Of a stretch of 63,947 nucleotides of DNA, positions 15,080-32,382 are shown piece by piece. The stretch covers positions 1 through 63,947 of the forward strand of contig JAFVQM010000009.1 of the NCBI GenBank assembly GCA_017504795.1, read 5' to 3'. Below the pieces are notes generated by a model. It was given only the letters and a program-made list of their open reading frames with translations, made no database searches and was not told the origin of the DNA. Origin of the DNA: Clostridia bacterium (GTDB lineage Bacteria > Bacillota > Clostridia > Christensenellales > Borkfalkiaceae). Each line of letters opens with the position of its first letter. Position 1 is the stretch's first letter. The translations under genes and the position numbers were made by a program.

Positions 15080-15871
15080 ATGATAGAAGAATTTTATTTT
15101 GATAAGTCAAGCAATGTAAAAGGCAGTAAAAGTTTAAGCCACTACCACAGTTTTTTAGAAATATACTATATGAAAGAAGGTAGTTGCAAGTACTTTATTG
15201 ACGATAAGTCCTATCTCGTTCGAGCTGGCGACTTGGTTATGATACCGTCTGGCGTTATACACAAAACCAACTACGATAGCCCAACGCACGTAAGGTGGCT
15301 AATAAATTGTTCAAACGAGTACGTTCCTAAGTCGCTACAAGATATAATTAGCAATATGACAAGGCTTTATAAGCGTTCAAAACTCACCGAAGAGTGCGAA
15401 GTTATTATGACGAAAATTGAGCGCGAATACTCTCGGCAAGACGAGTTTTCTAGCGAAGCGTTAAAAGGTTTTATATACGGTTTGCTTTTTTTACTGTTTA
15501 GAAATTGCGAAAATCAAGAGCAAGCGGTTTATTCAAGCCCACTTATTCAAAGGGTAATATTATATCTTAAAGAAAATTTAGGCGGAGAAATTTCGCTTAG
15601 CCGTACTGCGGAAAAATTTGGGGTTAGCGATGAGCATCTATCTCGAACTTTCAAAAAGCAAACGGGTTTTGGGTTTTCAGAATACCTAAATATTATAAGA
15701 CTACAAAAAGCACTTAATATGTTGAAAAACGAGCCTGGTAAATCGGTAAACGAAGTAGCCTTTATTTGTGGATTTAACGATAGTAATTATTTTTCCTATA
15801 AATTTACTAAGGCGTACGGCGTTTCGCCACGCTCGATAAAAAAATTAAAAAAAGTTGTTAAAAATCGTTGA
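15080..15871 (+). CDS. AraC-family regulator, probable activator of the uxa operon
   Basis: 263 residues: an N-terminal cupin sugar-sensing domain (SHYHSFLEIYYMKEG near 20-34, GDLVMIPSGVIHKT near 51-64) and a C-terminal double helix-turn-helix (about 160-263; SRTAEKFGVSDEHLSRTFKK, then CGFNDSNYFSYKFTKAYGVSP). It is transcribed away from uxaB, so control of hexuronate use is inferred from position. No Shine-Dalgarno sequence precedes the ATG and the best -10 box reaches the start codon, so the start may lie further in, or the message may be leaderless. Confidence 0.82.
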   Translation: MIEEFYFDKSSNVKGSKSLSHYHSFLEIYYMKEGSCKYFIDDKSYLVRAGDLVMIPSGVIHKTNYDSPTHVRWLINCSNEYVPKSLQDIISNMTRLYKRSKLTEECEVIMTKIEREYSRQDEFSSEALKGFIYGLLFLLFRNCENQEQAVYSSPLIQRVILYLKENLGGEISLSRTAEKFGVSDEHLSRTFKKQTGFGFSEYLNIIRLQKALNMLKNEPGKSVNEVAFICGFNDSNYFSYKFTKAYGVSPRSIKKLKKVVKNR

Positions 15872-15896
15872 CAAAGAAAAATCATGGTGCTACAAT
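15868..15896 (+). promoter_or_regulatory. Promoter of the Ile T-box unit
   Basis: TTGACA at 15868-15873 and TACAAT at 15891-15896, 17 bases apart. The -35 box overlaps the stop codon of the AraC gene. Confidence 0.85.
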
Positions 15897-15902
15897 AGGC
15901 TC

Positions 15903-16180
15903 AAATTAAATAACTTAAATTTCAAAAACTGTGACGAAGACTGGCTAAGTAGGAGTTTTCAGAGAGTCGGCGGGTGGTGTGAGCCGATAACGAGTATTTA
16001 CAACCTATCCCTTCTGAGTTGAAGGTGTGAATTATAGTAACGCCTTTCGTGACTTCTGCGTTAACGAATAGGAATTGTTGGATTCCAAAGTGGCAACTAG
16101 TTTAGTTGCAATTTGAGTGGTACCGCGAGTATATTTACCCGTCTCAAAACAAAAATTTTTGTTTTGAGATTTTTTTTTAC
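15903..16180 (+). ncRNA. T-box leader, specifier AUC (isoleucine)
   Basis: Hallmarks seen: AGAGAG bulge followed by the apical TCGGC...GCCGA hairpin with a GGTGGTGTGA-type loop (15961-15988), the T-box GTGGTACCGCG at 16117-16127, and a terminator at 16142-16178. The specifier was read from the base of stem I: AAC + TGTGAC + GAAG on the 5' side pairs as GAAG/CTTC and AAC/GTT around a K-turn, giving codon AUC at 16007-16009, one base before the CTTC arm. This is the same layout as the well-known glyQS leader. TGGT in the T-box fits a tRNA with discriminator A, as tRNA-Ile has. Ile starvation should switch on the gene at 16213. Confidence 0.85.
16142..16178 (+). terminator. Terminator of the Ile T-box leader
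   Basis: A fourteen-base perfect inverted repeat (TCTCAAAACAAAAA and its complement) followed by nine T. It competes with the antiterminator containing the T-box sequence. Confidence 0.88.
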
Positions 16181-16212: not shown

Positions 16213-18480
16213 ATGAATACTAACAACACTTTATCAAGGCTTTCAGAGATAGCAACGAGAATAAAAGAACTCAGAACTATATTAGATTATTCTGTTTACT
16301 ATATGGCTGAAAAAACCGAAGTTTCCCAAGAAAAGTACCGCGAATACGAAAGCGGAACGGTAGATATTCCGTTCACTTTTATACATAAATGCGCGCTTGT
16401 TTTCGGCGTTGAAATGACCGAACTTTTAGAAGGTAGCACTGCAAAACTTTCAACGTATACGGTAACTAGAAAGGGAGCAGGGCAAAAGACGGCGAAGGAA
16501 GACGGTATTGATATTGCTAACCTTGCACCCAAGTTCAAAGATAAACTTGCCGAGCCTTACTACGTTACTTACGAATACTCGCAGGCGCAACAAAATAAAC
16601 CTATACATTTAACAACCCACTCAGGTCAAGAATTCGACCTTGTGTTAAAGGGTAGTTTGAAAGTTCAAGTAGGCGAACACGTTGAAGTTTTACAAGAAGG
16701 CGACAGTATTTATTACAATTCGTCTACCCCTCACGGTATGATAGCGATAGGCGGTGAAAGTTGTACCTTCGTTGCGGTGGTAATGTCTGGCGACCGCACG
16801 GCTGAAACGGTTGTTAGAAAGAGCGTTATGTCGGCTAAAAAGTCCGAAAAACTCGTATGCGAAAAGTTCGTAGTTCCCACCGAAAACGAAAACGGCGAAC
16901 TTCTCGATATTAAGTTCAAAAACACGGATACCTTTAACTTCGGCTTTGATATAGTTGACGAGATTGCAAATCGCTATCCCGATAAACTTGCAATGCTCCA
17001 CCTTGATAAAAATAAAAACGAACGCCGTTTTACTTTTAAGGATATAAAAAGGGCGTCAAACCAAGTGGCAAACTACTTTACGTCACTCGGCATCAAGCGT
17101 GGCGATAAAGTTATGCTAGTGTTAAAGCGCCACTACCAGTTTTGGTTCTCAATGGTAGCGCTCCACAAACTCGGCGCGGTTGCAATACCAGCAACTAACC
17201 AACTTAAAGAGCACGATTTCGAGTATAGATACAACTCGGCTGGCGTAAAAGCAATCGTATGTACCGCCGACGGCGATACTTTTAAGTACGCTCAAAGCGC
17301 GGCTAAAAAATGCCCCCAAGTTGAAAAACTTATAATGGTTGGCGGGGCAAGAGAAGGCTGGCACGATTTCGATAAAGAATACGCACTTTTCTCGGGAAAA
17401 TTCGAGCGTTCCAAAGATTCTTCTTGCGGTGACGATACGGCGCTTATGTTCTTTACGTCAGGCACGACGGGAAACCCCAAAATGGCGGCTCATAAGCACA
17501 CGTACGCGCTCGGTCATTTCGTAACGGCAAAGTACTGGCACTGTTGCGAGCGTGACGGGCTTCACCTTACCATATCCGACACGGGTTGGGGTAAATCGTT
17601 ATGGGGAAAACTCTACGGTCAATGGCTTTGCGAGGGCGCAGTTTTCGTTTACGACTTTGATAAGTTTGACGAAAACGACATACTTCCGATGTTTGCAAAA
17701 TACAACATCACCACTTTCTGCGCTCCACCTACTATGCTTAGAATGCTTATCCGTGGTGACTTATCTAAGTTCGACTTATCGTCAATTCACCATATGACTA
17801 CGGCAGGCGAGGCATTAAACCCAGAAGTATTCAAGCAGTTCAAAGAAGCAACGGGGCTTGAAATTATGGAAGGCTTTGGTCAAACCGAAACTACGCTTGC
17901 AATTGCAAACCTTTACGGCACTACGCCTAAAATCGGCGCTATGGGTAAAGCAAGCCCGCAGTTTGACGTGGATATCGTAGATGCTGACGGCAACACCGTT
18001 GCCCCCGGCGAAGTAGGCGAAATTGTAATTCATACCGACAAAGAAGTTCCTTGCGGACTTTTCAAAGAATATTATCTTGACGAAGTTAAGACCAAAGAAG
18101 CGTGGCACGACGGGGTTTATCACACCGGCGACACTGCTTGGCGAGATGAAGACGGGTATTTCTGGTACGTCGGCCGTGTTGACGACGTTATAAAGTCTTC
18201 TGGCTATCGTATAGGGCCTTTCGAAATCGAATCTGTAATAATGGAACTTCCTTACGTTTTAGAGTGTGGTGTTTCCGCCGTTCCCGACGAAGTTCGCGGT
18301 CAAGTAGTAAAGGCAAGTATCGTGCTTACTAAGGGCACCGAGCCTAGCGAAGTACTTAAAAAAGAAATTCAAAAATACGTTAAAGACCACACCGCGCCTT
18401 ACAAATATCCAAGAGTGGTTGTGTTTAGAGACGAACTTCCTAAAACTATAAGCGGTAAAATCCAACGTAACAAGTTATAA
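16213..18480 (+). CDS. HTH-cupin-acyl-CoA synthetase fusion (Ile T-box controlled)
   Basis: A 755-residue three-part protein. Residues about 8-68 form an XRE-type helix-turn-helix; about 115-190 a cupin barrel (LTTHSGQEFDLVLKGSLKV, GDSIYYNSSTPHG); about 240-755 an AMP-forming acyl-CoA synthetase of the medium-chain type, with FFTSGTTGNPKMAAH near 412, GFGQTETT near 552, YHTGDTAWRDEDGYFWYVGR near 636 and the C-terminal catalytic lysine in SGKIQRNKL. All catalytic motifs look intact. ATP, a carboxylic acid and CoA give acyl-CoA. Because its leader reads Ile, 2-methylbutyrate (or propionate) is the inferred substrate. AAGGGGG precedes the ATG. Why a ligase carries a PuuR-like HTH-cupin unit is unknown; it may sense an acid or acyl-CoA and bind DNA or simply regulate the enzyme. 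Confidence 0.88.
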   Translation: MNTNNTLSRLSEIATRIKELRTILDYSVYYMAEKTEVSQEKYREYESGTVDIPFTFIHKCALVFGVEMTELLEGSTAKLSTYTVTRKGAGQKTAKEDGIDIANLAPKFKDKLAEPYYVTYEYSQAQQNKPIHLTTHSGQEFDLVLKGSLKVQVGEHVEVLQEGDSIYYNSSTPHGMIAIGGESCTFVAVVMSGDRTAETVVRKSVMSAKKSEKLVCEKFVVPTENENGELLDIKFKNTDTFNFGFDIVDEIANRYPDKLAMLHLDKNKNERRFTFKDIKRASNQVANYFTSLGIKRGDKVMLVLKRHYQFWFSMVALHKLGAVAIPATNQLKEHDFEYRYNSAGVKAIVCTADGDTFKYAQSAAKKCPQVEKLIMVGGAREGWHDFDKEYALFSGKFERSKDSSCGDDTALMFFTSGTTGNPKMAAHKHTYALGHFVTAKYWHCCERDGLHLTISDTGWGKSLWGKLYGQWLCEGAVFVYDFDKFDENDILPMFAKYNITTFCAPPTMLRMLIRGDLSKFDLSSIHHMTTAGEALNPEVFKQFKEATGLEIMEGFGQTETTLAIANLYGTTPKIGAMGKASPQFDVDIVDADGNTVAPGEVGEIVIHTDKEVPCGLFKEYYLDEVKTKEAWHDGVYHTGDTAWRDEDGYFWYVGRVDDVIKSSGYRIGPFEIESVIMELPYVLECGVSAVPDEVRGQVVKASIVLTKGTEPSEVLKKEIQKYVKDHTAPYKYPRVVVFRDELPKTISGKIQRNKL

Positions 18481-18650
18481 ACGGCGCAATACTTCGTTTC
18501 TGCCGTCGCCGTGTGTCTGCAATGACCAACAAGGTCTATTGCAACCACTCGTCTAGGCGAGCCTTGTCTTGCTTGTTTCTAACTCGTTACATATATTGTA
18601 ATAGGCTTTGAGTACAAATTGCCTTGTCTTGCTTGTTTCTAACTCGTTTC
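18481..18650 (+). repeat. Intergenic structured repeat, copy 1
   Basis: Begins right after the acyl-CoA synthetase stop. Core hairpin TGCAAT-GACC-AACAA-GGTC-T-ATTGCA at about 18518-18544, then a CTCGTCTAGGCGAG hairpin and the tail GAGCCTTGTCTTGC. A 28-base stretch at 18561-18588 is repeated exactly at 18621-18648. Related copies lie at 21349, 25893, 27504, 36990 and 37165. No coding potential was seen. Confidence 0.8.
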
Positions 18651-18728: not shown

Positions 18729-18757
18729 TTGACAATATTCAAAAGTAGTGTTAAATT
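18729..18757 (+). promoter_or_regulatory. Promoter of the Val T-box unit
   Basis: TTGACA (18729-18734) and TAAATT (18752-18757) with 17 bases between; a TATAAT a little further down (18761) is too far from the -35 box. Confidence 0.65.
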
Positions 18758-18763: not shown

Positions 18764-19025
18764 AATTAAATTAAAAGCGACGACGAAAAGTTACTTAAAA
18801 ATCCACTTTTTTCAGAGAATCGGCGTTTGGTGCAAGCCGTAAAAAGTCTTTTGAGTATGTAGTTTCCGAGCTGAGAGAAAGAAAGGTTTACCGATTAGAA
18901 TCTCTCCGTGACTTCTGCGTTAACGAATAGGAATTGTTAGATTCCAAAAGTGGCAACTTAGGTTGCAATTTGAGTGGTACCGCGGGATAAAACTCGTCTC
19001 AAAGCAATTTGGGGCGAGTTTTTTG
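18764..19025 (+). ncRNA. T-box leader, specifier GUA (valine)
   Basis: Contains CAGAGAA and the apical CGGC...GCCG hairpin (18813-18839), T-box GTGGTACCGCGG at 18974-18985 and a terminator. Stem I base: AGC (18776-18778) + GACGAC + GAAA (18785-18788) pairs with TTTC (18863-18866) + CGA + GCT (18870-18872); above the loop TACTTAAAA pairs with TTTTGAGTA. This places codon GUA at 18859-18861, one base before the TTTC arm, as in the other two leaders. A Phe reading (UUC, 18864-18866) would break the GAAA/TTTC helix. The stretch 18908-18960 is nearly identical to the Ile leader, so leader and gene were duplicated together. Confidence 0.8.
18991..19024 (+). terminator. Terminator of the Val T-box leader
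   Basis: AACTCGTCTC (18991-19000) pairs with GGGGCGAGTT (19011-19020), followed by a T run. Confidence 0.82.
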
Positions 19026-19067: not shown

Positions 19068-21347
19068 ATGGAAGAATTAAAACTAAAAATTAAAGAAATT
19101 AGCGAGCGTATTAAAGAACTTCGTGAGATTGAAAACGTAACGGTTGCCGAAATGGCAAAGTTAACGGGCGTAACCGAGCAAGAATATCTAGACTGTGAAA
19201 ACGGCGTAAGCGACTTAAACTTTGCGTTCATTTATCGTCTAGCAAACGCCCTTAAAGTCAACGTGACCGAACTTATCGAAGGTTACACGCCAAATCTTAA
19301 ATCGTACACGGTAACTAGAAACGGCAACGCGCCTATGGTAAGTAACGCCCACGGTATGACGTATTATAACTTAGCAAGCGCTTTCAAGAAAAAGATTGCC
19401 GAACCCCTTTACGTCGTTAGTAAGTATAGTGAAGAGGCGCAAAACACTCCGCTTGAACTCACTACCCACAACGGTCAAGAGTGCGACCTTATTATCGAAG
19501 GTAACTTGCTAGTTCAAATAGGCAAACACCAAGAAATTTTAGGACCTGGCGACAGTATTTATTATAATTCTGACACACCGCACGGTCTTAGAGCCGTTGG
19601 CGGAAAAGATTGTATTTTTTACGCTATCGTTCTAAACCCCACGGGCGAGCCGATTCCCGAACTTAGTAAGGAAATTATTCCGTCAAAACCCGTCAAGGTG
19701 GACGACGGCAAGAAGAAGAGAATTTACAAAAAGTATATCGACACCGTTCTTAACGAAAACGGAACGCCAACGTCTATCACTTTCAAAAATTACGAAAAGT
19801 TCAACTTCGCGTTTGACGTGTTAGACGCTATTGCGGAAAAAGACCCTGATAAACTTGCTATGTTACATATTAGCAAGGATAAAACCGAAAGGAGATTTAC
19901 CTTTAAGGATATCAAAAAGGAAAGTAACCGCGTAGCCAACTACTTAAAGTCGTTAGGCGTTAAAAAGGGAGATAGGGTACTTTTAGTATTAAAGCGCCAC
20001 TATCAATACTGGCCTACTATGATGGCGCTTAACAAACTCGGCGCTATCGCAATACCTGCAACCAACCAACTTCAACCGCACGACTTCGAGTACCGCTTTA
20101 ACGCGGCTGGCGTAAGTACGGTTATCGCTACGGCGGACGAGATGGTTGCGGATAATATTGAAAAAGTTTTAGATGCTTGCCCCACCGTTAAAACTAAAAT
20201 AATCGTTAACGGCAAAAGAGAAGGCTGGCACGACTTCAACGAAGAATACACCTTGTATTCCACCCACTTTAACCGCACGGAAGACACCGCTTGTGGCGAC
20301 GATTTGATGCTTATGTTCTTCACGTCGGGAACGACGGGCTATCCCAAAATCGCCGCTCACTCGTTTACCTATCCGCTTGGGCATTTCCACACGGCAAAGT
20401 ACTGGCACAACGTAGATCCTGACGGTATTCACTTTACAATATCCGATACCGGCTGGGCTAAGTCAATGTGGGGAAAACTTTACGGTCAATGGCTATGCGA
20501 AGGCGCAATTTTCGTTTACGACTTCGATAGGTTTGACGCTAGCGAAATTTTACCAATGTTTGCAAAGCACCAAATCACCACTTTCTGCGCACCGCCAACT
20601 ATGCTTAGAATGCTCGTTAAAGAAGATATTTCTAAATACGACTTATCGTCAATTAAGCATATGACTACCGCTGGCGAAGCGTTAAACCCCGAAGTTTACC
20701 GCCAGTTTGAAAAGGCTACGGGCTTGCAGATTATGGAAGGCTTTGGTCAAACCGAAAGCACTATGATTATCGGCAATATGACGGGGGCTTCGCATAAAAT
20801 CGGCTCAATGGGTAAGCCCGCACCTATATACGACGTTGATATCGTAGATAGTGACGGTAATTCCGTTGAAGACGGTGAAACGGGTGAAATCGTTATCAAA
20901 ATAGGTGACAAAGCGCCCTGCGGTTTATTCAAAGGCTATTATCGTGACGAAGAAAAAACTCGCGAAGTTTGGCACGACGGGTATTATCACACGGGCGACA
21001 CCGCTTGGCGTGATGAAGACGGGTTTTATTGGTACGTTGGCCGTGTTGACGACGTTATTAAGTCAAGTGGTTACCGTATAGGACCTTTCGAAATCGAATC
21101 GGTAATAATGGAACTTCCCTACGTTTTAGAGTGTGGCGTTTCTGCCGAGCCTGACGAAGTTCGCGGTCAAGTAGTAAAGGCAAGTATAGTACTTACTAAG
21201 GGTACCGAGCCTAGCGAAGAATTGAAGAAAGAAATTCAAAACTACGTTAAAAAGAACACCGCACCCTATAAGTATCCGCGTATCGTAGTGTTTAGGGACG
21301 AACTTCCCAAGACTATTAGCGGAAAAATCCAACGTAACAAACTTTAA
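19068..21347 (+). CDS. HTH-cupin-acyl-CoA synthetase fusion (Val T-box controlled)
   Basis: 759 residues and a close paralogue of the protein at 16213: HTH (about 5-65), cupin (LTTHNGQECDLIIEGNLLV, GDSIYYNSDTPHG) and a complete AMP-forming acyl-CoA synthetase with FFTSGTTGYPKIAAH, GFGQTEST, YHTGDTAWRDEDGFYWYVGR and terminal SGKIQRNKL. The ATG at 19068 follows GGAGAAGG; a longer in-frame reading from 18963 would lie inside the T-box leader and is rejected. The last 70 residues are almost identical to the paralogue, also at the DNA level, which suggests recent gene conversion. A valine-specific leader suggests isobutyrate as substrate. The lack of a clear terminator before the next genes suggests read-through into the oxidoreductase genes. 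Confidence 0.88.
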   Translation: MEELKLKIKEISERIKELREIENVTVAEMAKLTGVTEQEYLDCENGVSDLNFAFIYRLANALKVNVTELIEGYTPNLKSYTVTRNGNAPMVSNAHGMTYYNLASAFKKKIAEPLYVVSKYSEEAQNTPLELTTHNGQECDLIIEGNLLVQIGKHQEILGPGDSIYYNSDTPHGLRAVGGKDCIFYAIVLNPTGEPIPELSKEIIPSKPVKVDDGKKKRIYKKYIDTVLNENGTPTSITFKNYEKFNFAFDVLDAIAEKDPDKLAMLHISKDKTERRFTFKDIKKESNRVANYLKSLGVKKGDRVLLVLKRHYQYWPTMMALNKLGAIAIPATNQLQPHDFEYRFNAAGVSTVIATADEMVADNIEKVLDACPTVKTKIIVNGKREGWHDFNEEYTLYSTHFNRTEDTACGDDLMLMFFTSGTTGYPKIAAHSFTYPLGHFHTAKYWHNVDPDGIHFTISDTGWAKSMWGKLYGQWLCEGAIFVYDFDRFDASEILPMFAKHQITTFCAPPTMLRMLVKEDISKYDLSSIKHMTTAGEALNPEVYRQFEKATGLQIMEGFGQTESTMIIGNMTGASHKIGSMGKPAPIYDVDIVDSDGNSVEDGETGEIVIKIGDKAPCGLFKGYYRDEEKTREVWHDGYYHTGDTAWRDEDGFYWYVGRVDDVIKSSGYRIGPFEIESVIMELPYVLECGVSAEPDEVRGQVVKASIVLTKGTEPSEELKKEIQNYVKKNTAPYKYPRIVVFRDELPKTISGKIQRNKL

Positions 21348-21577: not shown

Positions 21578-22234
21578 ATGGAAAAGAGAATTATCATATT
21601 TAGCGGGCATTACGGTAGCGGTAAAACGAATATTGCTGTTAACTTTGCAACCGACCTTAAAAAAAGGCACGACAAAGTTGCGGTAGCCGACCTTGATATC
21701 GTAAACCCCTATTTTAGAACCAAAGACAGTCTTGACCTTTTTGAAAGAGAAGGGATAAGGTTAATATGTTCAGAGTACGCAAATAGCAACGTAGATATCC
21801 CCGCACTTCCGCAAGATATTTACGCCGTAACCGACGATACTACTTACAAAATGGTAGTTGACGTTGGCGGTGACGATAGGGGCGCGTTAGCGCTTGGTAG
21901 ATTAACCCCTAAAATCATTGCGGAAAACGACTATGAAATGCTACTAGTTATAAACTGCTATCGCCCACTAACGCCAAACGCTAGTTCTACGGTAGAAGTT
22001 GCTAGGGAGATAGAGTCGGCGTGCAAAATAAAGTTTACGGGCATAGTAAACAACTCCAACCTTGGAGATTTAACTTGTGAAGAAGACGTTTTAAGTTCGC
22101 TGTCTTACGCGCAAGAAATTTCTTCGCTTATGAAAATTCCCGTAAAATACACCACGGTAAAAAGTGACTTATATAAAAGTCTTAGCGGTAAAATTGAAAA
22201 TCTTTACCCACTTAACTTACAAAAAAAGATTTAA
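21578..22234 (+). CDS. MinD/ParA-like P-loop ATPase linked to the oxidoreductase
   Basis: 218 residues. GHYGSGKTNIAVNFA near residue 10 is the Walker A loop and VADLDIVNPYF near 38 the second SIMIBI-type motif; MVVDVGGDD near 90 is Walker B-like. Proteins of this kind often precede VorB-type 2-oxoacid oxidoreductases in Clostridia, so a part in assembling iron-sulfur clusters or the complex is plausible, but no function is proven. No clear ribosome site precedes the ATG. It lies 12 bases before the ferredoxin-type subunit gene. Confidence 0.75.
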   Translation: MEKRIIIFSGHYGSGKTNIAVNFATDLKKRHDKVAVADLDIVNPYFRTKDSLDLFEREGIRLICSEYANSNVDIPALPQDIYAVTDDTTYKMVVDVGGDDRGALALGRLTPKIIAENDYEMLLVINCYRPLTPNASSTVEVAREIESACKIKFTGIVNNSNLGDLTCEEDVLSSLSYAQEISSLMKIPVKYTTVKSDLYKSLSGKIENLYPLNLQKKI

Positions 22235-22245: not shown

Positions 22246-22452
22246 ATGGCAAAACTTACGATTAACGTTGAAAAATGCAAAGGCTGTGGTCTTTGTGTTG
22301 ACGTTTGTCCCAAAAACGTTTTGGAACTCTCGCCAAATAAAATCAATAAAAAAGGGCATAAACCCGTAGAAGCGGTTAGAGAAGAAAGTTGCATAGGTTG
22401 TGCTTTTTGCGCAACTATGTGTCCCGACTGCATTATTAAGGTAGAAAGGTGA
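22246..22452 (+). CDS. vorD: 2-oxoacid:ferredoxin oxidoreductase delta (2x4Fe-4S) subunit
   Basis: 68 residues with two cysteine sets, CKGCGLCVDVCP near 10-21 and CIGCAFCATMCP near 48-59, each for one 4Fe-4S cluster. It relays electrons between ferredoxin and the TPP subunits encoded next to it. TTAAGGAGAA precedes the ATG. The symbol is by analogy with other Vor/Kor operons. Confidence 0.9.
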   Translation: MAKLTINVEKCKGCGLCVDVCPKNVLELSPNKINKKGHKPVEAVREESCIGCAFCATMCPDCIIKVER

Positions 22453-22456: not shown

Positions 22457-23518
22457 ATGGCAAATAAAGTTTTAATGAAAGGTAACGAAGCAATTGCCGA
22501 AGCAGCAATCAAAGCAGGTTGCAAACACTACTTTGGCTATCCCATAACTCCGCAAACGGAAATTGCCGCTTATATGGCTAAAAAGATGCCTAAAATCGGC
22601 GGTACTTTCTTACAAGCGGAAAGTGAAATTGCCGCTATCAATATGGTATACGGCGTATCTTCGGCTGGTTATAGGGTTATGACTAGTTCGTCAAGCCCGG
22701 GCATTTCGCTTAAAAGCGAAGGTTTATCCTACCTAGCAGGTGCGGACCTTCCCGCGGTTGTTATAAACGTTCAACGTGGCGGTCCTGGTCTTGGTGATAT
22801 TCAACCTAGCCAGTCAGACTATTTTCAAGCAACTCGTGGCGGTGGTCACGGTGACTTCCATATGATAGTATTAGCGCCCGGTAGCGTTCAGGAAATGGCG
22901 TCGCTCACCGTAAAGGGCTTTGAACTTGCGGACAAGTATAGAATGACCGCTATGATTCTTGCCGACGGTACTATGGGGCAAATGATGGAGCCCGTTGAAC
23001 TTGATTTCGACGTTGCGCCCGCACCCGAAAAACCTTGGGCAACCAACGGTACTAAAATGCAAAGAAAGCACAATATAACTAACTCTTTATCGCTCGTTCC
23101 CGAAGAACTTGAAAAGTTTAACTTCGCTAGATACGAAAGATACAAACTTATCGAAGAAACGGAAGCGTTGTGCGAAGAGTATTTGATGGACGACGCTGAA
23201 ATTGCAGTAACTGCTTACGGCATTGCGTCAAGAGTAACCAAAAACGCCGTTGACGAAGCGCGCAAAATGGGTATAAAGGTAGGTTTAATTAGACCTATAA
23301 CCGTATGGCCTTTCCCCAAAGCGCCCTATGAAAAAGCGGCAGAAAAAGTTAACCATATAATTACCGTTGAACTTTCAATGGGGCAAATGATAGAAGACGT
23401 TATGCTTGCAACCAAGTGTAAAGTTCCCGTAACGCTTTGCAACCGCGCGGGTGGTATGATACCTTCGGTTGAACAGGTGTTAGAAGAAATTAAAAAATAC
23501 GCTAAAAGGGGGGAATAA
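22457..23518 (+). CDS. vorB: 2-oxoacid:ferredoxin oxidoreductase alpha subunit, VorB type
   Basis: 353 residues. KGNEAIAEAAIKAGCKHYFGYP at the start, QAESEIAAINMVYGVS near 55 and TSSSSPGISLKSEGLSY near 75 are typical of the alpha subunit annotated as 3-methyl-2-oxobutanoate dehydrogenase VorB. The complex interconverts branched 2-oxo acids plus CoA with acyl-CoA, CO2 and reduced ferredoxin. Substrate preference cannot be read from sequence, but the company of a branched-chain aminotransferase and Ile/Val/Leu T-boxes favours branched-chain acids. Here the reductive (carboxylating) direction is inferred. Confidence 0.9.
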   Translation: MANKVLMKGNEAIAEAAIKAGCKHYFGYPITPQTEIAAYMAKKMPKIGGTFLQAESEIAAINMVYGVSSAGYRVMTSSSSPGISLKSEGLSYLAGADLPAVVINVQRGGPGLGDIQPSQSDYFQATRGGGHGDFHMIVLAPGSVQEMASLTVKGFELADKYRMTAMILADGTMGQMMEPVELDFDVAPAPEKPWATNGTKMQRKHNITNSLSLVPEELEKFNFARYERYKLIEETEALCEEYLMDDAEIAVTAYGIASRVTKNAVDEARKMGIKVGLIRPITVWPFPKAPYEKAAEKVNHIITVELSMGQMIEDVMLATKCKVPVTLCNRAGGMIPSVEQVLEEIKKYAKRGE

Positions 23519-23521: not shown

Positions 23522-24274
23522 ATGGTAGTATTTGATAAACCTAAATCACTTGCAGATATCTCTATGCACTATTGCCCCGGTTGTACCCACGGCATAGTTC
23601 ACCGCTTAGTTGCCGAAGTTATTGACGAACTCGGTATCGAAGGCAAAACTATCGGTATCGCGCCCGTTGGTTGTTCGGTTATGGCGTACAACTACTTTAA
23701 TTGCGATATGATAGAAGCCGCTCACGGCAGAGCACCTGCCGTTGCTACTGGTGTTAAAAGAGCAAATCCTGACGAGCATATCGTATTTACCTATCAAGGT
23801 GACGGCGACTTAGCGTCAATCGGTATGGCTGAAACCGTACACGCTGCGGCTCGTAACGAAAACATAACTATAATCTTTATTAACAACGCCATCTACGGTA
23901 TGACGGGTGGTCAAATGGCGCCCACGTCACTTCCTGGGCAAGTAACTCAAACGTCCCCCTACGGGCGTGACGTTAACGCTTGCGGTTACCCCGTTAAAGT
24001 GTGTGAAATGCTTTCTACCTTAGAAGGTCCAGAATATTTAGAAAGAGTTACCGTAAACAGCGTAAAAGCAGTTAAAAACGCTAAAAAGGCAATTAAAAAA
24101 GCCTTCCAAAATCAAATTGATAAGAAAGGTTTTTCTCTCGTAGAAGTTTTATCTACCTGCCCAACCAACTGGGGTATGACTCCGCAAAACGCCCTTAAAT
24201 GGATTGACGAAAAGATGATTCCGTACTATCCCTTAGGCGTGTATAAAGACAGAAGTAATAAGGAGAATAACTGA
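23522..24274 (+). CDS. vorA: 2-oxoacid:ferredoxin oxidoreductase beta subunit (TPP-binding)
   Basis: 250 residues. YCPGCTHG near 17, APVGCSVM near 50, and the TPP/magnesium motif [10 protein letters not shown] near 97-106 followed by [18 protein letters not shown] near 117-134 are as expected. It binds thiamine diphosphate and carries out the C-C bond step with the alpha subunit. Four bases separate it from vorB, one from the gamma gene. Confidence 0.9.
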
Positions 24275-24275: not shown

Positions 24276-24815
24276 ATGAAAACTACTAAATATTTATTCT
24301 CTGGTTTTGGTGGTCAAGGTATACTATTTTCGGGTAAATTCTTAGCCTACAAAGGTCTTACTGCTGACAAAAACGTTAGTTGGTTGCCTTCTTACGGCCC
24401 CGAAATGCGCGGTGGCACGGCAAGTTGTGGCGTTATTATATCTGACGGGTCTATCGGCTCGCCTATTATCGACAAGCCTGACGTTTTGATTGCAATGAAT
24501 CTTCCTTCGCTCGATAAATACGAAAGCACGGTGGTTTCTGGCGGTACTATCGTTTTAGATAGTTCGCTTATAGATAGAAAGGTTGAAAGAACTGACGTTA
24601 ACGCCGTTTACGTTCCCGCAACTAGATTAGCAAGTGAAAACGGTATGCCAACGCTTGCAAATATGATAATCGTAGGTAAACTTTTAGCGCTTGAAGGCGA
24701 AACGGGTAGCGAAATTATTGACGAAACGCTTAAAAAAGTAATATCTGCAAAGCATGCGGATATGCTTGAAGTTAACAAAAAAGCAATGCAAATCGGCGCT
24801 GATTATAAGGAGTAA
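24276..24815 (+). CDS. vorC: 2-oxoacid:ferredoxin oxidoreductase gamma subunit
   Basis: 179 residues with [18 protein letters not shown] near 9 and [13 protein letters not shown] near 41-53, the signature of the gamma domain that contacts CoA and the other subunits. It ends four bases before the ilvE start codon at 24820, so the aminotransferase is translated next. Confidence 0.9.
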
Positions 24816-24819: not shown

Positions 24820-25881
24820 ATGGAAATTAAAATAGTTAAAACTCAAAACAAAAAAGTTAAACCCGAACCTAGCACTTTGGGGTTCGGCAAATATTTTTCA
24901 GACCATATGGCTATGATGACTTGGTCGCAAGAAAAGGGTTGGCACAACGCTCGTATCGTTCCGTTTGAAAATTTATCTATCCACCCTGCAAGCACCGTTC
25001 TTCACTACGGCGCGGAAATATTTGAAGGCTTAAAGGCGTACAGAAGAAAAGACGGTGGCGTTCAAATGTTTAGACCTATCGAAAACGTTAGAAGACTTAA
25101 CCGTTCGGCTGAAAGGCTTTGTCTTCCCACTATCCCCGAAGATATGGCTTTTGAACTTTTAACAAAGTTTGTTGAAGTTGAACAGGAATGGACTCCGTCA
25201 AACGAAGGAACTTCCCTTTATTTAAGACCGTTTATGTTTGGTAACGACGAAACTCTCGGAGTTCACTCGGTACACAACGCGGAATTCGTGATTATTGCGT
25301 CGCCCGTTGGCAGTTACTACAAAGAAGGCATCAACCCCGTTAAAATCATGATAGAAAATGAAGACGTTAGAGCCGTTCGCGGTGGTACGGGTTATGCTAA
25401 ATGCGGTGGTAACTACGCTGCAAGCACAAGAGCAGGTAAGCGCGCCGAAGATAAAGGTTACTCGCAAGTATTGTGGCTTGACGGTGTTGAAAGAAAGTAT
25501 ATCGAAGAAGTTGGCGCTATGAACGTTATGTTCAAAATAAACGGCAAAATCGTTACGCCTATGCTTTCGGGCTCAATTCTCCCAGGTATTACTCGTATGA
25601 GTTGTATCGAAGTGTTAAAGTCAAAAGGCTTTGACGTTGAAGAAAGGCTTTTATCGGTTGACGAACTCGTTTCCGCTATGAAAGACGGTACTCTCGAAGA
25701 GGCCTTCGGTTGCGGTACTGCTGCCGTTATTTCGCCTATCGGCGAACTTATGTACGACGGGGTTAAATACACCGTAAACGGCGGTAAAATCGGCGAAACT
25801 ACTCAAATGCTTTACGATATCTTAACTGGTATTCAATGGGGTAAGGTAGAAGATACGTTCGGCTGGGTATATAAAATCTAA
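24820..25881 (+). CDS. ilvE: Branched-chain amino acid aminotransferase
   Basis: 354-residue class IV PLP enzyme exchanging amino groups between glutamate and the 2-oxo acids of Val, Leu and Ile. Motifs: LHYGAEIFEGLKAYR near 64-78, LYLRPFMFG near 129, KCGGNYAAS near 190, and EEVGAMNVMFKING near 229, typical of the long IlvE type. ATG at 24820 follows TAAGGAG, which overlaps the stop of vorC; a longer frame from 24754 lies inside vorC and is rejected. Its position after the Vor genes makes it the last step of the proposed route. Confidence 0.94.
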   Translation: MEIKIVKTQNKKVKPEPSTLGFGKYFSDHMAMMTWSQEKGWHNARIVPFENLSIHPASTVLHYGAEIFEGLKAYRRKDGGVQMFRPIENVRRLNRSAERLCLPTIPEDMAFELLTKFVEVEQEWTPSNEGTSLYLRPFMFGNDETLGVHSVHNAEFVIIASPVGSYYKEGINPVKIMIENEDVRAVRGGTGYAKCGGNYAASTRAGKRAEDKGYSQVLWLDGVERKYIEEVGAMNVMFKINGKIVTPMLSGSILPGITRMSCIEVLKSKGFDVEERLLSVDELVSAMKDGTLEEAFGCGTAAVISPIGELMYDGVKYTVNGGKIGETTQMLYDILTGIQWGKVEDTFGWVYKI

Positions 25882-26128: not shown

Positions 26129-26129
26129 T

Positions 26130-26339: not shown

Positions 26340-26410
26340 ATACCTAACTTATCACAAAATGATGTAAAAGTCTACTAAATAACACAAATTTGATAAAGAG
26401 ATTTAATAAT

Positions 26411-26448
26411 AAAAAGCCTTATAGTCATTTTGACTATAAGGCTTTTTT
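26411..26448 (-). terminator. Terminator of the second XRE gene
   Basis: Perfect 16-base stem AAAAAGCCTTATAGTC / GACTATAAGGCTTTTT, directly downstream of the stop at 26451. Almost identical to the hairpin at 26096. Confidence 0.8.
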
Positions 26449-27156: not shown

Positions 27157-27188
27157 TTAAAAAACTTTATAATACCCTAAAAATTGTT

Positions 27189-27217
27189 TGACAATGGGTA
27201 AAAGTATTGATATAATT
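27189..27217 (+). promoter_or_regulatory. Promoter of the Leu T-box operon
   Basis: TTGACA (27189-27194) and TATAAT (27212-27217), 17 bases apart: a consensus promoter. Confidence 0.87.
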
Positions 27218-27223: not shown

Positions 27224-27502
27224 ATATTTTTTATAAATGCAGTGATGGAATTATTGAAAATTCGTTAGTCGCTTTCAGAGAGTTGGCGGTAGGTGTGAGT
27301 CAATAGGGCTGAGTTTTTAAGTCTCGTTCCGGAGCAGAGTTTTTGAACTAACAGTAGGAAACTTCGGCTTGCCCCGTTATCATGGCATAGAGTTTGTTTG
27401 AACTCGATTTGAGCCCGAATATAATTTTCGGGGAAATAGGGTGGTACCACGGTGATAATAATCGTCCCTAACTTGCAACTAGATGCGAGTTAGGGATTTT
27501 TT
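27224..27502 (+). ncRNA. T-box leader, specifier CUC (leucine)
   Basis: CAGAGAG bulge and apical TTGGC...GTCAA hairpin (27276-27303), T-box GTGGTACCACGG at 27441-27452, terminator 27465-27502. Stem I base: TGC (27238-27240) + AGTGAT + GGAA (27247-27250) pairs with TTCC (27327-27330) + GGA + GCA (27334-27336), a textbook K-turn; above it TTGAAAA pairs with TTTTTAA. The codon one base before the TTCC arm is CUC at 27323-27325. Leucine agrees with the first gene being a LeuA homologue. TGGT in the T-box fits a tRNA ending A-CCA. Confidence 0.85.
27465..27502 (+). terminator. Terminator of the Leu T-box leader
   Basis: TCCCTAACTTGC (27465-27476) pairs with GCGAGTTAGGGA (27485-27496), followed by six T. 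Confidence 0.88.
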
Positions 27503-27726: not shown

Positions 27727-29115
27727 ATGAAAAAAATCAAAATCGTAGACGTTACGCTTAAAAAACTCAGTGAAGAACGCGAAGTATCGCTTTTATTCCG
27801 TGAAAAATCGGCAATTGCAAACAACGCTGAACTACTAGGTGCTAACGCTATTGAACTTCCCGCGGTTAAAAACTATCGCGAAGATTCTATCATTTATAAA
27901 TCTATCTCGCAAAATATTCAAAATGCAACGCTTGCTATCCCCGTTGGGTTTAGTAAAGAAGGCGTCTCTATCGCTTGGGAATGCATTAAAACTGCTAAAA
28001 ACCCACGCCTTCAAGTAGAACTTCCCGTATCTACTATTCAAATGGAATACGCATATCACGTAAAGCAAGAAAAAATGCTTGTAAAAATTGCTGAACTTGT
28101 AAAAGAAGCAAAATCTTATTGCAGTGACGTTGAGTTTTCCGCACTTGACGCGACTCGCGCTAACGTTGACTTTTTAGTTTCAGCCGTTCAAGAAGCCGAA
28201 AAAAGCGGTGCAACGTCTATAAGCATTTGCGATAATTCGGGTACGTCAATGCCTAGCGATTTTGCAAGTTTAGTAGAAACGGTTATAAACGCCGTTTCAA
28301 TTCCCGTATATGTATCTGTTTCCGACCGTATAAATATGGGCGTAGCGTCTGCGATAGAGTCTATTTCAAAAGGCGTTTGCGGATTAAAGTGCGCTATGAT
28401 AGGAAAGGACGTGTTACTCTCTGGCGAAATTTCTGACGCGATGAGTGTTTGCGGTGCAAAAATAGGTGCTGAAATAGAACTTAAAAGCACTAAAATTCAC
28501 GCAAGTATCGACGATTTGCTTTCTAAAATAAGCCACAAGTCCTACGAAACAACTTCAAGCATTGACGACGGAAATCAAATTTTACTTGACGACCAGTCTA
28601 CGTTAGCCGACGTTATGAATTCGGCAATCAAACTTGGTTACGACCTTTCCGACGCCGACTGTGGCAACGTTTACAAAGCGCTTATCACCGTTTGCGAAAA
28701 AAGGGGAACGGTTGGCGCAAAAGAATTTGAAGCGCTTATTGCAAGTAACGCTATGCAAGCGCCGTCAACCTATCACTTTGAAAGTTACACCACGACTAGT
28801 AGCAACTTGTCAAAATCAATGTCGCAAGTGACCTTAAAAACGGGTGACGAAACTATTTGTGGTGTAGCGTCGGGCGACGGTCCTATCGATTCTGCTTTCC
28901 GCGCTATCGAACAATGCATAGGCTATCACTACGAACTTGATAACTTCGAAGTTCAATCGGTAACCGAAGGTAAAGAAGCATTAGGTTCTGCGCTCGTTAG
29001 ACTTAGAAATAACGGCAAACTCTATTCTGGCAACGGCACTTCGACCGATATCGTTGGCGCTAGTATTAGGGCGTATATAAACGCCGTTAACAAAATCGTA
29101 GCCGAGGAGGCTTAA
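27727..29115 (+). CDS. 2-isopropylmalate synthase homologue with lost catalytic metal site
   Basis: 462 residues with the layout of LeuA: a DRE-TIM barrel (1 to about 270), a linker, and a well-kept C-terminal allosteric domain (about 345-462; GDGPIDSAFRAIEQ, STDIVGASIRAYINAVN) that binds leucine in true LeuA. In the barrel the TLRDG motif reads TLKKL (residues 10-14), the metal-binding His-x-His is Ser197-Val-Ser199, and the GIGERAGN segment is CAMIGKDVLLSG. Without these ligands, condensation of acetyl-CoA with 2-oxoisovalerate is not expected. It is therefore probably a pseudoenzyme, perhaps a leucine sensor for the ligase encoded next. AAAGGAGATT precedes the ATG; two bases... separate stop and next start by one codon-free base. 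Confidence 0.85.
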   Translation: MKKIKIVDVTLKKLSEEREVSLLFREKSAIANNAELLGANAIELPAVKNYREDSIIYKSISQNIQNATLAIPVGFSKEGVSIAWECIKTAKNPRLQVELPVSTIQMEYAYHVKQEKMLVKIAELVKEAKSYCSDVEFSALDATRANVDFLVSAVQEAEKSGATSISICDNSGTSMPSDFASLVETVINAVSIPVYVSVSDRINMGVASAIESISKGVCGLKCAMIGKDVLLSGEISDAMSVCGAKIGAEIELKSTKIHASIDDLLSKISHKSYETTSSIDDGNQILLDDQSTLADVMNSAIKLGYDLSDADCGNVYKALITVCEKRGTVGAKEFEALIASNAMQAPSTYHFESYTTTSSNLSKSMSQVTLKTGDETICGVASGDGPIDSAFRAIEQCIGYHYELDNFEVQSVTEGKEALGSALVRLRNNGKLYSGNGTSTDIVGASIRAYINAVNKIVAEEA

Positions 29116-29116: not shown

Positions 29117-31576
29117 ATGAAAATTGTATTTTCTACGAAAAACGTAAATCGTTCGTCCTTTCTCGATACCTGTCGTTACGCCTACGATTACGGATTTAAG
29201 GGTTTTGAGATATACGACGCGATTAAAGAAAGATTAAATCATCACGATAGTATTTTGCGCCGTGACCGTATCGCCGACTCTAAAAGAAAACTCGTAAATA
29301 GGGGGCTTTCAGTTTCCGCACTTAGAATGCCCACCGCTATCGACAGCCAAGAAACTACGGCAAGTACCGTTGAAAAGTACGTGGAAATGGCGTCCGTTTC
29401 GGGTGTTGAAAACGTTATAGTTTACGTTGAAAATAAAGTTGATTTTTCTATTTTAGACGAAAAACTTTTATCTGCCGTTAAAAAGGCTGAGAAGTTAGAC
29501 GTTAATATTTTATTCGAAACGATAGGGTATCTTTGCCACACCGAAAACGTAATAGAGATAATAAACCACTTCTCGTCCGCCGTGATAGGCGTTTCTTGGA
29601 ACGTTAGGGGCACGTATTTTACGGCAAAAGAGTCAGCCGAGTCGACCATTAAAACTTTGGGCGCGTATATAAAGTACGTTCGCCTTGGTGATATGAAAGG
29701 CGATAAAACCGTTTTAATCGGCGAGGGCGAACTCGACGTTGAAAAACTTATAAACGCTTTATCGTCACTTAATTACGACGGGTTTATCTGCGCCGCTTGG
29801 AACGACGAAATCAACGATGCCGATATCGTTTTAACCCACTTTTCTAACTACGTAGCGTCGCTTAACCGTGAAAAAACAACTACTAGTGGCGAGTATTATA
29901 ATAGGGCAAAAACGGGCACTTACGTTTGGAAAAAGTACGACGTTATAGATGCAACTTTTTCAAAAGTGTTAGATACTATGGTCGAAAACTATCCCGACCA
30001 GTATGCGTTTAAGTTTCCTACGCTCGACTATACTAGAACATACCAGCAGTTCCGCCGTGACGTTGACGAGTGCGCCGCAGCGCTTATATCCTTAGGCGTA
30101 AAGGCAGGCGACCACGTTGCCGTTTGGGCAACTAACGTGCCAGAGTGGTATATAACTTTCTGGGCAACTACTAAAATCGGCGCAGTACTAGTTACCGTTA
30201 ACACCGCTTATAAAATTCACGAAATCGAGTATTTGTTAAAGCAGTCTGACACGCATACTCTTATTATGATAGAGTATTCAAAAGACATAAACTACAAAGA
30301 AATAATAAGTGAACTTTGCCCCGAACTCAAAACGCTTGAACCTGGAAAACCCTTATATTCTAAAAACTTGCCTTTCCTTAGAAACGTAGTAACGGTAGGC
30401 TTTTCGATGGACGGGTGCTTAACGTACGAGCAAATGCTTAATCGCGCATCACTTATCCCGCAAGAAGAAGTGAGAAGGCGCGCATCACTCGTAAAGCCAG
30501 ACGACGTTTGTAATATGCAATATACGTCTGGAACGACGGGCTTTCCAAAAGGCGTTATGCTTACCCACCGCAATATCGTAAACAACGGTAAAACTATCGG
30601 CGATAGAATGGATTTATCAACTGCCGACCGCATGATGATACAAGTGCCTATGTTCCACTGTTTTGGAATGGTGCTTTCAATGACTTCTATGATGACTCAC
30701 GGCGGAACGCTTTGTCCTATTCCGTACTTCTCGCCAAAGTCGTCACTCGCGTGCATTAACGATGAAAAAATCACTTGTTTTAACGGTGTTCCTACAATGT
30801 TTATCGCGATGTTTAACCACCCCGACTTTGCTAAGACTGACTTCTCGTATATGAGAACGGGTATTATGGCGGGGGCTAACTGTCCACCCGATTTGATGAG
30901 GCGCGCGTCGGTTGAAATGAATATGCGTGAAATCATCTCGGTTTACGGACAAACGGAAGCGTCGCCAGGCTGTACTATGGGTGAAGTTAACGAAGACTTA
31001 GACCACCGCGTTGAAACGGTTGGTAGTGCTTTCCCCGGCGTTGAGTGTAAAATTATCGACCCTGAAACGGGCAAAGAACTCCCTGATGGTGAAAGTGGCG
31101 AATTCGTTGCGCGTGGCTTTAACATTATGAAAGGCTACTATAAAATGCCCGAGGCAACCGCGCAAGCGATAGATAAAGACGGGTGGCTCCACTCAGGCGA
31201 TATTTGTATGAGAACGCCCGACGGTTACTATAAAGTAACGGGCAGACTTAAAGATATGATAATTCGCGGTGGCGAAAACTTATACCCCCGCGAGATTGAA
31301 GAGTTTTATTTAACAAACCCAAAAGTAAGAGATATCCAAGTAGTAGGCGTTCCCGACGAAAAGTACGGCGAAGAGTGTTGCGCGTGGATAATACTCCACA
31401 AGGGCGAAACGGCTGACGAAAACGAGATGAAAGAGTATGGAAACGCGTCTATTGCAAGGCACAAAGTTCCAAAGTACTTTATGTTTGTTAACGAGTTCCC
31501 CATGAACGCTGCGGGCAAAATTCTTAAATACAAGATGAGAGAAGAGTCCGCAATAAAATTAGGGCTTAAAAAATAA
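29117..31576 (+). CDS. TIM barrel-acyl-CoA synthetase fusion (Leu T-box controlled)
   Basis: 819 residues. Residues 1 to about 255 resemble sugar phosphate isomerase/epimerase TIM barrels, but only some metal ligands remain: ILFETIG near 133 keeps the Glu, while the usual Asp-x-x-His and His-x-x-Asp positions read WNVRG and RLGD. Residues about 275-819 are a complete AMP-forming acyl-CoA synthetase of the FadD-like type: YTSGTTGFPKGVMLTHRN near 470, YGQTEASPG near 614, GWLHSGD near 690, and the terminal lysine in AAGKILKYKMRE. It differs from the two HTH-cupin ligases in both parts. Under a leucine T-box, isovalerate is the inferred substrate, giving isovaleryl-CoA for the Vor complex. GAGGAGG lies before the ATG. 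Confidence 0.86.
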   Translation: MKIVFSTKNVNRSSFLDTCRYAYDYGFKGFEIYDAIKERLNHHDSILRRDRIADSKRKLVNRGLSVSALRMPTAIDSQETTASTVEKYVEMASVSGVENVIVYVENKVDFSILDEKLLSAVKKAEKLDVNILFETIGYLCHTENVIEIINHFSSAVIGVSWNVRGTYFTAKESAESTIKTLGAYIKYVRLGDMKGDKTVLIGEGELDVEKLINALSSLNYDGFICAAWNDEINDADIVLTHFSNYVASLNREKTTTSGEYYNRAKTGTYVWKKYDVIDATFSKVLDTMVENYPDQYAFKFPTLDYTRTYQQFRRDVDECAAALISLGVKAGDHVAVWATNVPEWYITFWATTKIGAVLVTVNTAYKIHEIEYLLKQSDTHTLIMIEYSKDINYKEIISELCPELKTLEPGKPLYSKNLPFLRNVVTVGFSMDGCLTYEQMLNRASLIPQEEVRRRASLVKPDDVCNMQYTSGTTGFPKGVMLTHRNIVNNGKTIGDRMDLSTADRMMIQVPMFHCFGMVLSMTSMMTHGGTLCPIPYFSPKSSLACINDEKITCFNGVPTMFIAMFNHPDFAKTDFSYMRTGIMAGANCPPDLMRRASVEMNMREIISVYGQTEASPGCTMGEVNEDLDHRVETVGSAFPGVECKIIDPETGKELPDGESGEFVARGFNIMKGYYKMPEATAQAIDKDGWLHSGDICMRTPDGYYKVTGRLKDMIIRGGENLYPREIEEFYLTNPKVRDIQVVGVPDEKYGEECCAWIILHKGETADENEMKEYGNASIARHKVPKYFMFVNEFPMNAAGKILKYKMREESAIKLGLKK

Positions 31577-31578
31577 TT

Positions 31579-32382
31579 ATGGTAAAAGGATACGAAATTA
31601 TTGACGCGCATTGTCACATATACCCCGATAAAATTGCCGAACGCGCCGTGCACGGAACGGATACTTTTTACGATATCGTTTCAAAACACAAAGGCACGTT
31701 TAAGGACTTAGTTAGCCAAAAAGAAAGTAGCGGTATAGATAAATTCGTAGTTCAATCGGTGGCAACAACGCCACACCAAGTTAAGAGCATAAACGAGTTC
31801 GTAGCGCGAGAAATCGACCTATACGGCGATTTTCTTATAGGTCTTGGCACTTTGCACCAAAATAGCGAAACTATGAAAGAAGACGTTTTGCACCTTATAG
31901 AACTTGGGCTTAAAGGCGTAAAACTCCACCCTGATATACAAAATTTCAAGATAGACGAAGAAAGATATTTTGAAATTTACGAACTTTGTCAAAAGCATAA
32001 CTTACCTATCTTAATGCACACGGGCGATTTTAGGTACGACAACTCGAACCCCAACCGTTTAATACCCGTACTTGAAACTTTCAAAGACCTAAAAATCATA
32101 GGCGCGCATTTTGGCGGTTGGTCAATTTATGAAGACGCAAGCAAAAAACTAAACAAATACGAAAACTTGTTCGTAGACTGTTCGTCTTCCTTTTACGCGC
32201 TTAAAAAACCCGTGGCAAAAGAGATTATAAACCGCTACGGAGTGGATAGAGTACTATTTGGCTCAGACTATCCTATGTGGGACGCGGGCGAAGAACTTAA
32301 CTACTTTTTCTCGCTTAACCTAAGCCGTGAAGAAAACGAAAAAATCTTATCTAAAAACGTTAAAGCGTTACTTAAATTCTAA
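31579..32382 (+). CDS. Amidohydrolase-family metal hydrolase
   Basis: 267 residues of the amidohydrolase-2 type: IDAHCHIYPD near residue 6 (first metal His pair), LHPDIQNF near 113, LMHTGD near 137, GAHFGGW near 174 and FGSDYPMWD near 225 (final Asp). Members hydrolyse or decarboxylate small ring or lactone compounds; nothing here fixes the substrate. It starts two bases after the ligase stop, so it belongs to the Leu operon. Its role there is unknown. Confidence 0.8.
   Translation: MVKGYEIIDAHCHIYPDKIAERAVHGTDTFYDIVSKHKGTFKDLVSQKESSGIDKFVVQSVATTPHQVKSINEFVAREIDLYGDFLIGLGTLHQNSETMKEDVLHLIELGLKGVKLHPDIQNFKIDEERYFEIYELCQKHNLPILMHTGDFRYDNSNPNRLIPVLETFKDLKIIGAHFGGWSIYEDASKKLNKYENLFVDCSSSFYALKKPVAKEIINRYGVDRVLFGSDYPMWDAGEELNYFFSLNLSREENEKILSKNVKALLKF

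Follow-up and report, generated by a model that had tools for sequence, protein, structure and literature searches.

Why should genes for acyl-CoA ligases stand behind RNA switches that report on the supply of isoleucine, valine and leucine? The question is raised by a 63,947-nucleotide contig (JAFVQM010000009.1; here called the window and taken at its full length) from the metagenome-assembled genome (MAG) of a Clostridia bacterium, in which three AMP-forming acyl-CoA ligases are distributed over three units, each opened by a T-box leader. T-boxes switch genes on when the cognate charged tRNA is short, and AMP-forming ligases run toward activation of their acids. An earlier note on this DNA had proposed that the ligases belong to a system which makes the three amino acids from branched short-chain acids. 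The analysis described below leads to the same reading: the module very probably makes isoleucine, valine and leucine from such acids and replaces a classical route that is missing. The control elements of the three units are as follows.

15868..15896, + strand: promoter-like site TTGACA-17-TACAAT of unit 1 (consensus match)
15922..16149, + strand: T-box leader 1, specifier AUC (Ile) at 16007-16009 (Rfam RF00230, 112.3 bits, E 5e-24)
16141..16170, + strand: terminator-like hairpin of leader 1 (consensus match)
18729..18757, + strand: promoter-like site of unit 2 (consensus match)
18771..19004, + strand: T-box leader 2, specifier GUA (Val) at 18859-18861 (Rfam RF00230, 106.4 bits, E 2e-22)
18989..19022, + strand: terminator-like hairpin of leader 2 (consensus match)
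27188..27216, + strand: promoter-like site TTGACA-17-TATAAT of unit 3 (12/12 consensus)
27233..27472, + strand: T-box leader 3, specifier CUC (Leu) at 27323-27325 (Rfam RF00230, 124.7 bits, E 3e-27)
27464..27497, + strand: terminator-like hairpin of leader 3 (consensus match)

All three T-boxes pass the gathering score of the RF00230 covariance model (93 bits; cmscan). The specifiers were read in two ways, from the cmscan model alignment and by a rule derived from the four pairs that form the basal helix of Stem I, and both yielded the codons AUC, GUA and CUC that the earlier note had named. Chance T-boxes are ruled out by the E values together with the conservation described below. The terminator-like hairpins, which are consensus matches only, overlap the 3' part of all three T-boxes; promoter-like sites found by consensus matching number 38 in that region, with 23 expected. 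In one 42-base stretch leaders 1 and 2 share all bases but one, as would be expected if leader and ligase had been duplicated jointly and the specifier changed afterwards. T-box control elsewhere in this genome is ordinary, since three further T-box matches (G000 C29, C19 and C13, or L004-L006), all under the gathering score, precede genes that we name by eye as trpB-like, cysE-cysS and thrS; the T-box of the trpB-like gene has the specifier UGG.

The genes behind the leaders, all on the same strand, are these.

16213..18480, + strand: ligase 1, XRE-type helix-turn-helix (HTH) and cupin domains followed by an AMP-forming acyl-CoA ligase; predicted substrate 2-methylbutyrate (Ile); Gly460 codon at 17590-17592 (domain and family scans)
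19068..21347, + strand: ligase 2, XRE-HTH, cupin and acyl-CoA ligase; predicted substrate isobutyrate (Val) (domain and family scans; start chosen by reading)
21578..22234, + strand: ParA/CbiA-like NTPase, a recurring member of the set (domain scan, recurrence)
22246..22452, + strand: 68-residue ferredoxin carrying two cysteine motifs of the [4Fe-4S] type, probably VorD, the delta subunit of a 2-oxoacid:ferredoxin oxidoreductase (VOR) (translation, motifs by eye)
22457..23518, + strand: VorB, VOR alpha subunit (NCBIfam NF005507, 532 bits, cut-off 399)
23522..24274, + strand: VOR beta subunit, binding thiamine pyrophosphate (domain scan; under NCBIfam cut-offs)
24276..24815, + strand: VOR gamma subunit (Pfam POR; under NCBIfam cut-offs)
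24820..25881, + strand: IlvE branched-chain aminotransferase (NF009897, 479 bits, cut-off 307; start chosen by reading)
27727..29115, + strand: LeuA-like protein, an HMGL barrel without catalytic residues and an intact LeuA_dimer domain; proposed leucine sensor (domain scans, alignment)
29117..31576, + strand: ligase 3, a TIM barrel (AP_endonuc_2) and an acyl-CoA ligase nearest PRK12583; predicted substrate isovalerate (Leu) (family scans)
31579..32382, + strand: amidohydrolase-like gene, membership doubtful (named by reading)

Unit 1 is thus a single ligase gene, unit 2 runs from ligase 2 through the NTPase, the ferredoxin, VorB and the beta and gamma subunits to IlvE, and unit 3 comprises the LeuA-like gene, ligase 3 and the amidohydrolase-like gene. 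The HTH and cupin domains are fused ahead of the enzyme part in ligases 1 and 2; ligase 3 is fused to a xylose-isomerase-like TIM barrel in which few residues are fully conserved and which gave one weak match among solved structures. VorB and IlvE exceed their NCBIfam cut-offs, IlvE at the equivalog level, and VorB is flanked by the beta and gamma subunits and by the ferredoxin, probably the delta subunit of the same enzyme. The scores thereby bear out the VorB-type oxidoreductase and IlvE that the earlier note had placed between the ligases. Its picture of three ligases, each behind a T-box, stands for ligases 1 and 2 and needs correction for the third, as the Leu T-box meets the LeuA-like gene first and ligase 3 begins 1.6 kb further downstream; the core genes are as it described them, to which the LeuA-like gene, the fused HTH-cupin and TIM domains, the ferredoxin and the NTPase, all unmentioned there, have to be added.

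Is this arrangement peculiar to one genome? The sample searched consists of 61 genomes, the window's own and 60 relatives, and a fused ligase (a ligase match of at least 900 bits) is carried by 21 of them. The same genes recur in differing orders across the 20 stretches examined, with ligase 1 or 2 sometimes distant from the rest of the set and provided with its own T-box; VOR and IlvE, which belong to the Val unit in the window, follow ligase 1 or form part of the Leu unit in other genomes. A T-box stands directly upstream of such a ligase in 16 of the 18 genomes searched, 15 times well formed and once, in G049, weak; the G047 leader precedes a ligase without the HTH-cupin part. There are 42 leaders at these loci, of which 40 are readable, the others being a second short match in G031 and the leader of G049. 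Counting the window with its relatives, the specifier is AUC before ligase 1 in 13 of 13 cases, GUA before ligase 2 in 13 of 13, with one more GUA before the G047 ligase, and CUC before the LeuA-like gene in 13, among them G003, whose contig stops just behind that leader.

A scan of genome contigs extends this picture to the best 80 of at least 589 related stretches, where matches covering more than 60% of a protein were counted. All 80 named loci come from MAGs or uncultured organisms, titled Clostridia, Clostridiales, Oscillospiraceae, Ruminococcus or Ruminococcaceae, with a small number of Lachnospiraceae and Bacillota, a single Solobacterium and an entry that says only 'bacterium', and many are titled after samples from sheep, goat, deer, cattle, buffalo, yak or horse. 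Ligase 1 is preceded by ATC at 69 loci, with no T-box found at 11 (three of them near a contig end); ligase 2 by GTA at 32 and GTC at four, with one rule call of CCC that is GTC by eye and no T-box found at 12; and the LeuA-like gene by CTC at 17 and CTG at eight, with no T-box found at eight (three near a contig end). The motif scan is of limited sensitivity, and the counts of loci where none was found are upper bounds. The codon changes across these loci and the amino acid stays constant, which is telling, since changing one base can be enough for a T-box to respond to a different tRNA (work of Grundy described in PMC2494555). The search for the same set in related genomes that the earlier note had called for was thus successful, and its idea of one ligase per amino acid, each with a logic that fits synthesis, gains support from a specifier amino acid kept across so many genomes. 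The ParA/CbiA-like NTPase is found in 58 of the 80 named loci, and the amidohydrolase-like gene lies beside the set in 20.

Three apparent exceptions among the specifiers were set aside on inspection: an 'ACC' at L137 is a false match within the coding stretch of a ligase; the 'CCC' at L151 is GTC by eye, since AAG stands for GAG; and at L104, with 'GTA on ligase 1', two pieces match one gene, of which the front piece has a slightly higher score with ligase 1 and the rear piece with ligase 2, and the gene is taken as ligase 2. At L072-L076 (G052, G058, G038 and G059) the HTH-cupin part and the ligase are separate genes, and the motif scan found no T-box before the ligase; a pre-fusion state is possible.

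How would such a module work? Three AMP-forming ligases would activate acids taken from the environment, 2-methylbutyrate by ligase 1, isobutyrate by ligase 2 and, less certainly, isovalerate by ligase 3. One shared, ferredoxin-dependent VOR would carboxylate the acyl-CoAs, and IlvE would aminate the resulting 2-oxo acids to isoleucine, valine and leucine. A shortage of one amino acid would raise its uncharged tRNA, which would bind the T-box leader and prevent termination, and readthrough of the leader would allow the ligase for the matching acid to be made, so that each activation step would be opened separately and the module would stand in for the missing classical route. The conversions themselves are old and reportedly go back to work that includes that of Robinson and Allison (1969). 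Branched volatile acids are growth factors for ruminococci, and their incorporation into amino acids, isovalerate into leucine, 2-methylbutyrate into isoleucine and isobutyrate into valine, is rumen work of the 1960s (PMC7356843); in rumen methanogens 2-methylbutyrate and isovalerate serve isoleucine and leucine synthesis (PMC10658910), and isoacids are fed to ruminants (PMC10311502).

Ligases 1 and 2 separate along the same line as their specifiers. In a tree of 157 fused ligases the 82 with an Ile label and the 48 with a Val label lie on opposite sides of one branch with a support of 100; 26 have no T-box found, and the single CCC call falls on the Val side (the rows include some duplicates of one genome under two ids, such as L085 = G006 and L082 = G022). 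Eight alignment columns separate the two clades at 90% each. Seven are in the HTH and the HTH-cupin stretch (residues 58-116), and the sole one in the enzyme part is residue 460, Gly in 94 of 95 on the Ile side versus Ala in 62 of 62 on the Val side. This residue aligns with Val310 of E. coli Acs, a residue of the acyl pocket, like AcsSe Val310 and AcsMt Ile312; a bulkier side chain (Ala) for the smaller acid (isobutyrate) would make sense.

The known relatives of the enzyme part point the same way. The nearest solved structure to ligase 1 is 3etc (627 bits; the next scores 347), labelled 'AMP-binding protein' in the structure search, which we take to be MacsMa of Methanosarcina acetivorans, as the offset of the YHTGD motif and Trp259 fit; the structure paper of MacsMa, cited in PMC10455477, names small branched acyl substrates in its title. 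MacsMa has Gly at the site of residue 460, like the Ile clade. It prefers 2-methylbutyrate (PMC10455477), and its Trp259 in the acyl pocket, placed by the YHTGD offset from that paper, is equivalent to Trp464 of ligase 1, which is invariant in nine sequences. MacsMa, whose ligase domain is the nearest by sequence, has this Trp and this Gly in common with ligase 1; it differs in being archaeal and in that the 580 residues of its solved chain include no HTH-cupin part. The closest NCBIfam family for ligases 1 and 2 is MbcS, whose Staphylococcus aureus representative is selective for 2-methylbutyrate and isobutyrate and acts poorly on isovalerate (PMC10026030). Taken together, the ligase families fit 2-methylbutyrate and isobutyrate as the predicted acids of units 1 and 2.

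The likeness to MbcS invites another explanation, namely that the branched acyl-CoAs made by the ligases serve to prime branched-chain fatty acids and that amino acid synthesis is secondary. Lipid synthesis is indeed what MbcS serves, since its role in S. aureus is the priming of branched-chain fatty acids (PMC10026030). A membrane-lipid module is nevertheless very unlikely: it would not call for one ligase per amino acid with a matching specifier, for the linked VOR and IlvE or for the loss of ilvC and ilvD, and no FabH is found among the ten scanned proteins of the set, FabH not having been searched for elsewhere.

The Leu unit calls for separate treatment, because the first gene behind its T-box resembles that of a classical leucine enzyme, 2-isopropylmalate synthase (LeuA), which raises the alternative that the protein simply makes 2-isopropylmalate and that ligase 3 has nothing to do with leucine. 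The HMGL and LeuA_dimer domains (PF08502 at 1e-29) and the Leu T-box are in line with this. The LeuA model TIGR00973 gives the protein 217 versus 599 bits, and eight catalytic residues of LeuA, located in TLRDG, SPIHM, SAED, HxH and GERAGN, tell against catalysis. Of these eight, 48 LeuA-like orthologues keep none (30 proteins), one (16) or two (2); not one of the 48 retains the His of SPIHM, either metal-binding His of HxH or the Glu of GERAGN, while six true LeuA proteins from relatives keep all eight. The segment with FAHEAGIHQHG is deleted as well, and the regulatory-domain stretches GDGPIDAAF and STDI..ASIRAY..A.NK are retained. Nor is a partner enzyme at hand: LeuC-like frames of LeuC size, present by our reading in 23 genomes (those in G025 and G053 are cut short), never co-occur with the LeuA-like gene, and the 17 genomes with that gene have LeuC-like frames of 534-738 residues, which we take for aconitases, or no match. 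Ligase 3, finally, lies directly behind the LeuA-like gene in the window and in relatives. Classical leucine synthesis by this protein is therefore rejected for lack of catalytic residues and of a LeuC-sized gene, and the chance that the Leu unit is classical after all is very slight. Judged by its residues the LeuA-like protein is catalytically dead; having lost catalytic residues and one segment and kept the domain families, the regulatory domain and the Leu T-box of LeuA, it probably senses leucine on behalf of ligase 3 or of the ligase 3 gene. The nearest family of ligase 3 is PRK12583 (670 bits, cut-off 832), and a ligase of another family is what would be needed in the Leu unit if the pocket of MbcS and MacsMa rejects isovalerate.

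Do the carriers need such a route? Over the whole sample ilvC (TIGR00465) is over cut-off in 21 genomes and ilvD (TIGR00110) in 23. Both are under cut-off in 20 of the 21 carriers of the fused ligase (ilvB and ilvA were not searched for), and G049 alone has either; weak partial ilvC matches occur in G046 (27 bits) and G051 (20 bits). Genomes without the fused ligase have ilvC in 20 of 40 cases (21 with the partial match of G012) and ilvD in 22 of 40, giving Fisher values, uncorrected for kinship, of 2e-4 (ilvC, G012 counted) and 8e-5 (ilvD). Of the 20 carriers without ilvC and ilvD, 15 have a completeness of 90% or more. Nor do the carriers simply lack amino acid synthesis, since aroA, taken as a control, passes its cut-off in 16 of the 17 genomes with the system (76 bits in G046). 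The earlier note had suggested a search for the absence of the classical genes, and ilvC, ilvD and leuC are absent from nearly all carriers, with G049 as the exception for ilvC and ilvD. A catabolic module, in which branched-chain amino acids are deaminated, VOR oxidises the 2-oxo acids to acyl-CoA and the ligases release the acids, perhaps conserving energy, could use the same enzymes, as both VOR and IlvE can run either way and are known from organisms that ferment amino acids, but Ile, Val and Leu T-boxes that activate when charged tRNA is short have the wrong sign, AMP-forming ligases run the other way and ilvC, ilvD and leuC are gone from most carriers, and this explanation, rejected on the sign of the control, is very unlikely.

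Several observations weigh against synthesis from branched acids as the function of the module. The reversibility of VOR just mentioned is one. Ligases 1 and 2 score 445 and 454 bits, against an equivalog cut-off of 850 for MbcS, and are accordingly not taken as MbcS. The isovalerate assigned to ligase 3 is less certain than the other two acids, as only the Leu T-box and the differing family point to it. Five of the 20 carriers without ilvC are less than 90% complete, the counts are uncorrected for kinship, and by cut-off ilvC and ilvD are also missing from 18 of the 40 genomes that have no fused ligase, so that absence alone does not imply the module. In G049, ilvC and ilvD are present alongside a fused ligase whose T-box-like leader (L027 4391-4243; 39 bits) has a well-formed T-box core and a terminator, but in which Stem I is aberrant and no specifier can be read; the classical route and the fused ligase can coexist. 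In the T-box search of 18 genomes no match was found before the whole set in G051 or before the fused ligase in G043. Finally, tRNA-Ile and tRNA-Leu(GAG) were not found in the window's MAG, which is 83.6% complete; tRNA-Leu(AAG) is present. As an observation in its own right, the set of G051 (C13, L054) forms one colinear run.

Beyond the synthesis of three amino acids from branched acids, a wider reading can be put forward, tentatively and as a whole with considerable doubt. Every entry gate of the module may be doubly controlled, by a T-box RNA and by a ligand-sensing protein domain: at the Ile and Val gates the HTH-cupin part fused to the ligase would be the protein-level sensor, and at the Leu gate a retired isopropylmalate synthase, now only a leucine receptor, would restrain ligase 3. 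The same design of a T-box on a ligase would reach aromatic acids, and the carriers would make amino acids on demand from the fermentation waste of other microbes. The aromatic part starts from two relatives, G001 (L191 1273-1495) and G007 (L192 6861-6652), where a T-box above cut-off with the specifier UAC (Tyr), read by alignment, stands before a ligase. In G001 this ligase is followed by IorA and IorB, both of which pass their cut-offs, and by a PaaK-like gene that stays under its own; in G007 frames of similar sizes and an IorA-type match follow. In the window's genome two PaaK-like genes flank an IorA, and no T-box match lies nearby. The combination of a Tyr T-box ligase, IorAB and a PaaK-like gene is a possible counterpart of the module; aroA is present in both G001 and G007, so that it would be an alternative route and not a replacement.

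The surroundings of the units hold further features. An AraC-type regulator with a cupin domain (window 15080-15871) lies directly upstream of T-box 1 and is found in the same place in G003, G005 and G006. A dispersed intergenic repeat of about 108 nucleotides has four copies in the window (18475-18582, 21352-21459, 27509-27616 and 36993-37100). In the interval between IlvE and T-box 3, stem-loop repeats that are 88% alike (26088-26130 and 26406-26448) lie around apparent short minus-strand HTH genes; the genes of this interval we take, by eye, to be of the XRE type.

What, then, is new? The conversions proposed are those of the 1960s rumen carboxylation chemistry, to which the window adds genes, one ligase per acid and an RNA control for each amino acid. 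In the T-box operons of Bacillales and Clostridia, T-box leaders likewise govern the supply of isoleucine, valine and leucine, but the pathway there is the classical one, in contrast to ligases of a carboxylation route under three separate leaders (PMC2494555). In a search of the open-licence literature, no paper was found to name the genes or to place acyl-CoA ligases under T-boxes, in agreement with the earlier note, which knew of no such description; print elsewhere may differ. The chemistry is thus old, and within that literature the genes and the T-box control of the ligases are apparently new. If the leucine-receptor role of the catalytically dead LeuA is true, the protein would clearly exemplify the retirement of an enzyme. 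The gene set would put genes to the rumen chemistry of the 1960s. The ligases are otherwise generic, and it is the specifiers that assign a substrate to each of them, supply a marker by which dependence on cross-feeding may be recognised in the genomes of gut bacteria, and make an old physiology testable gene by gene.

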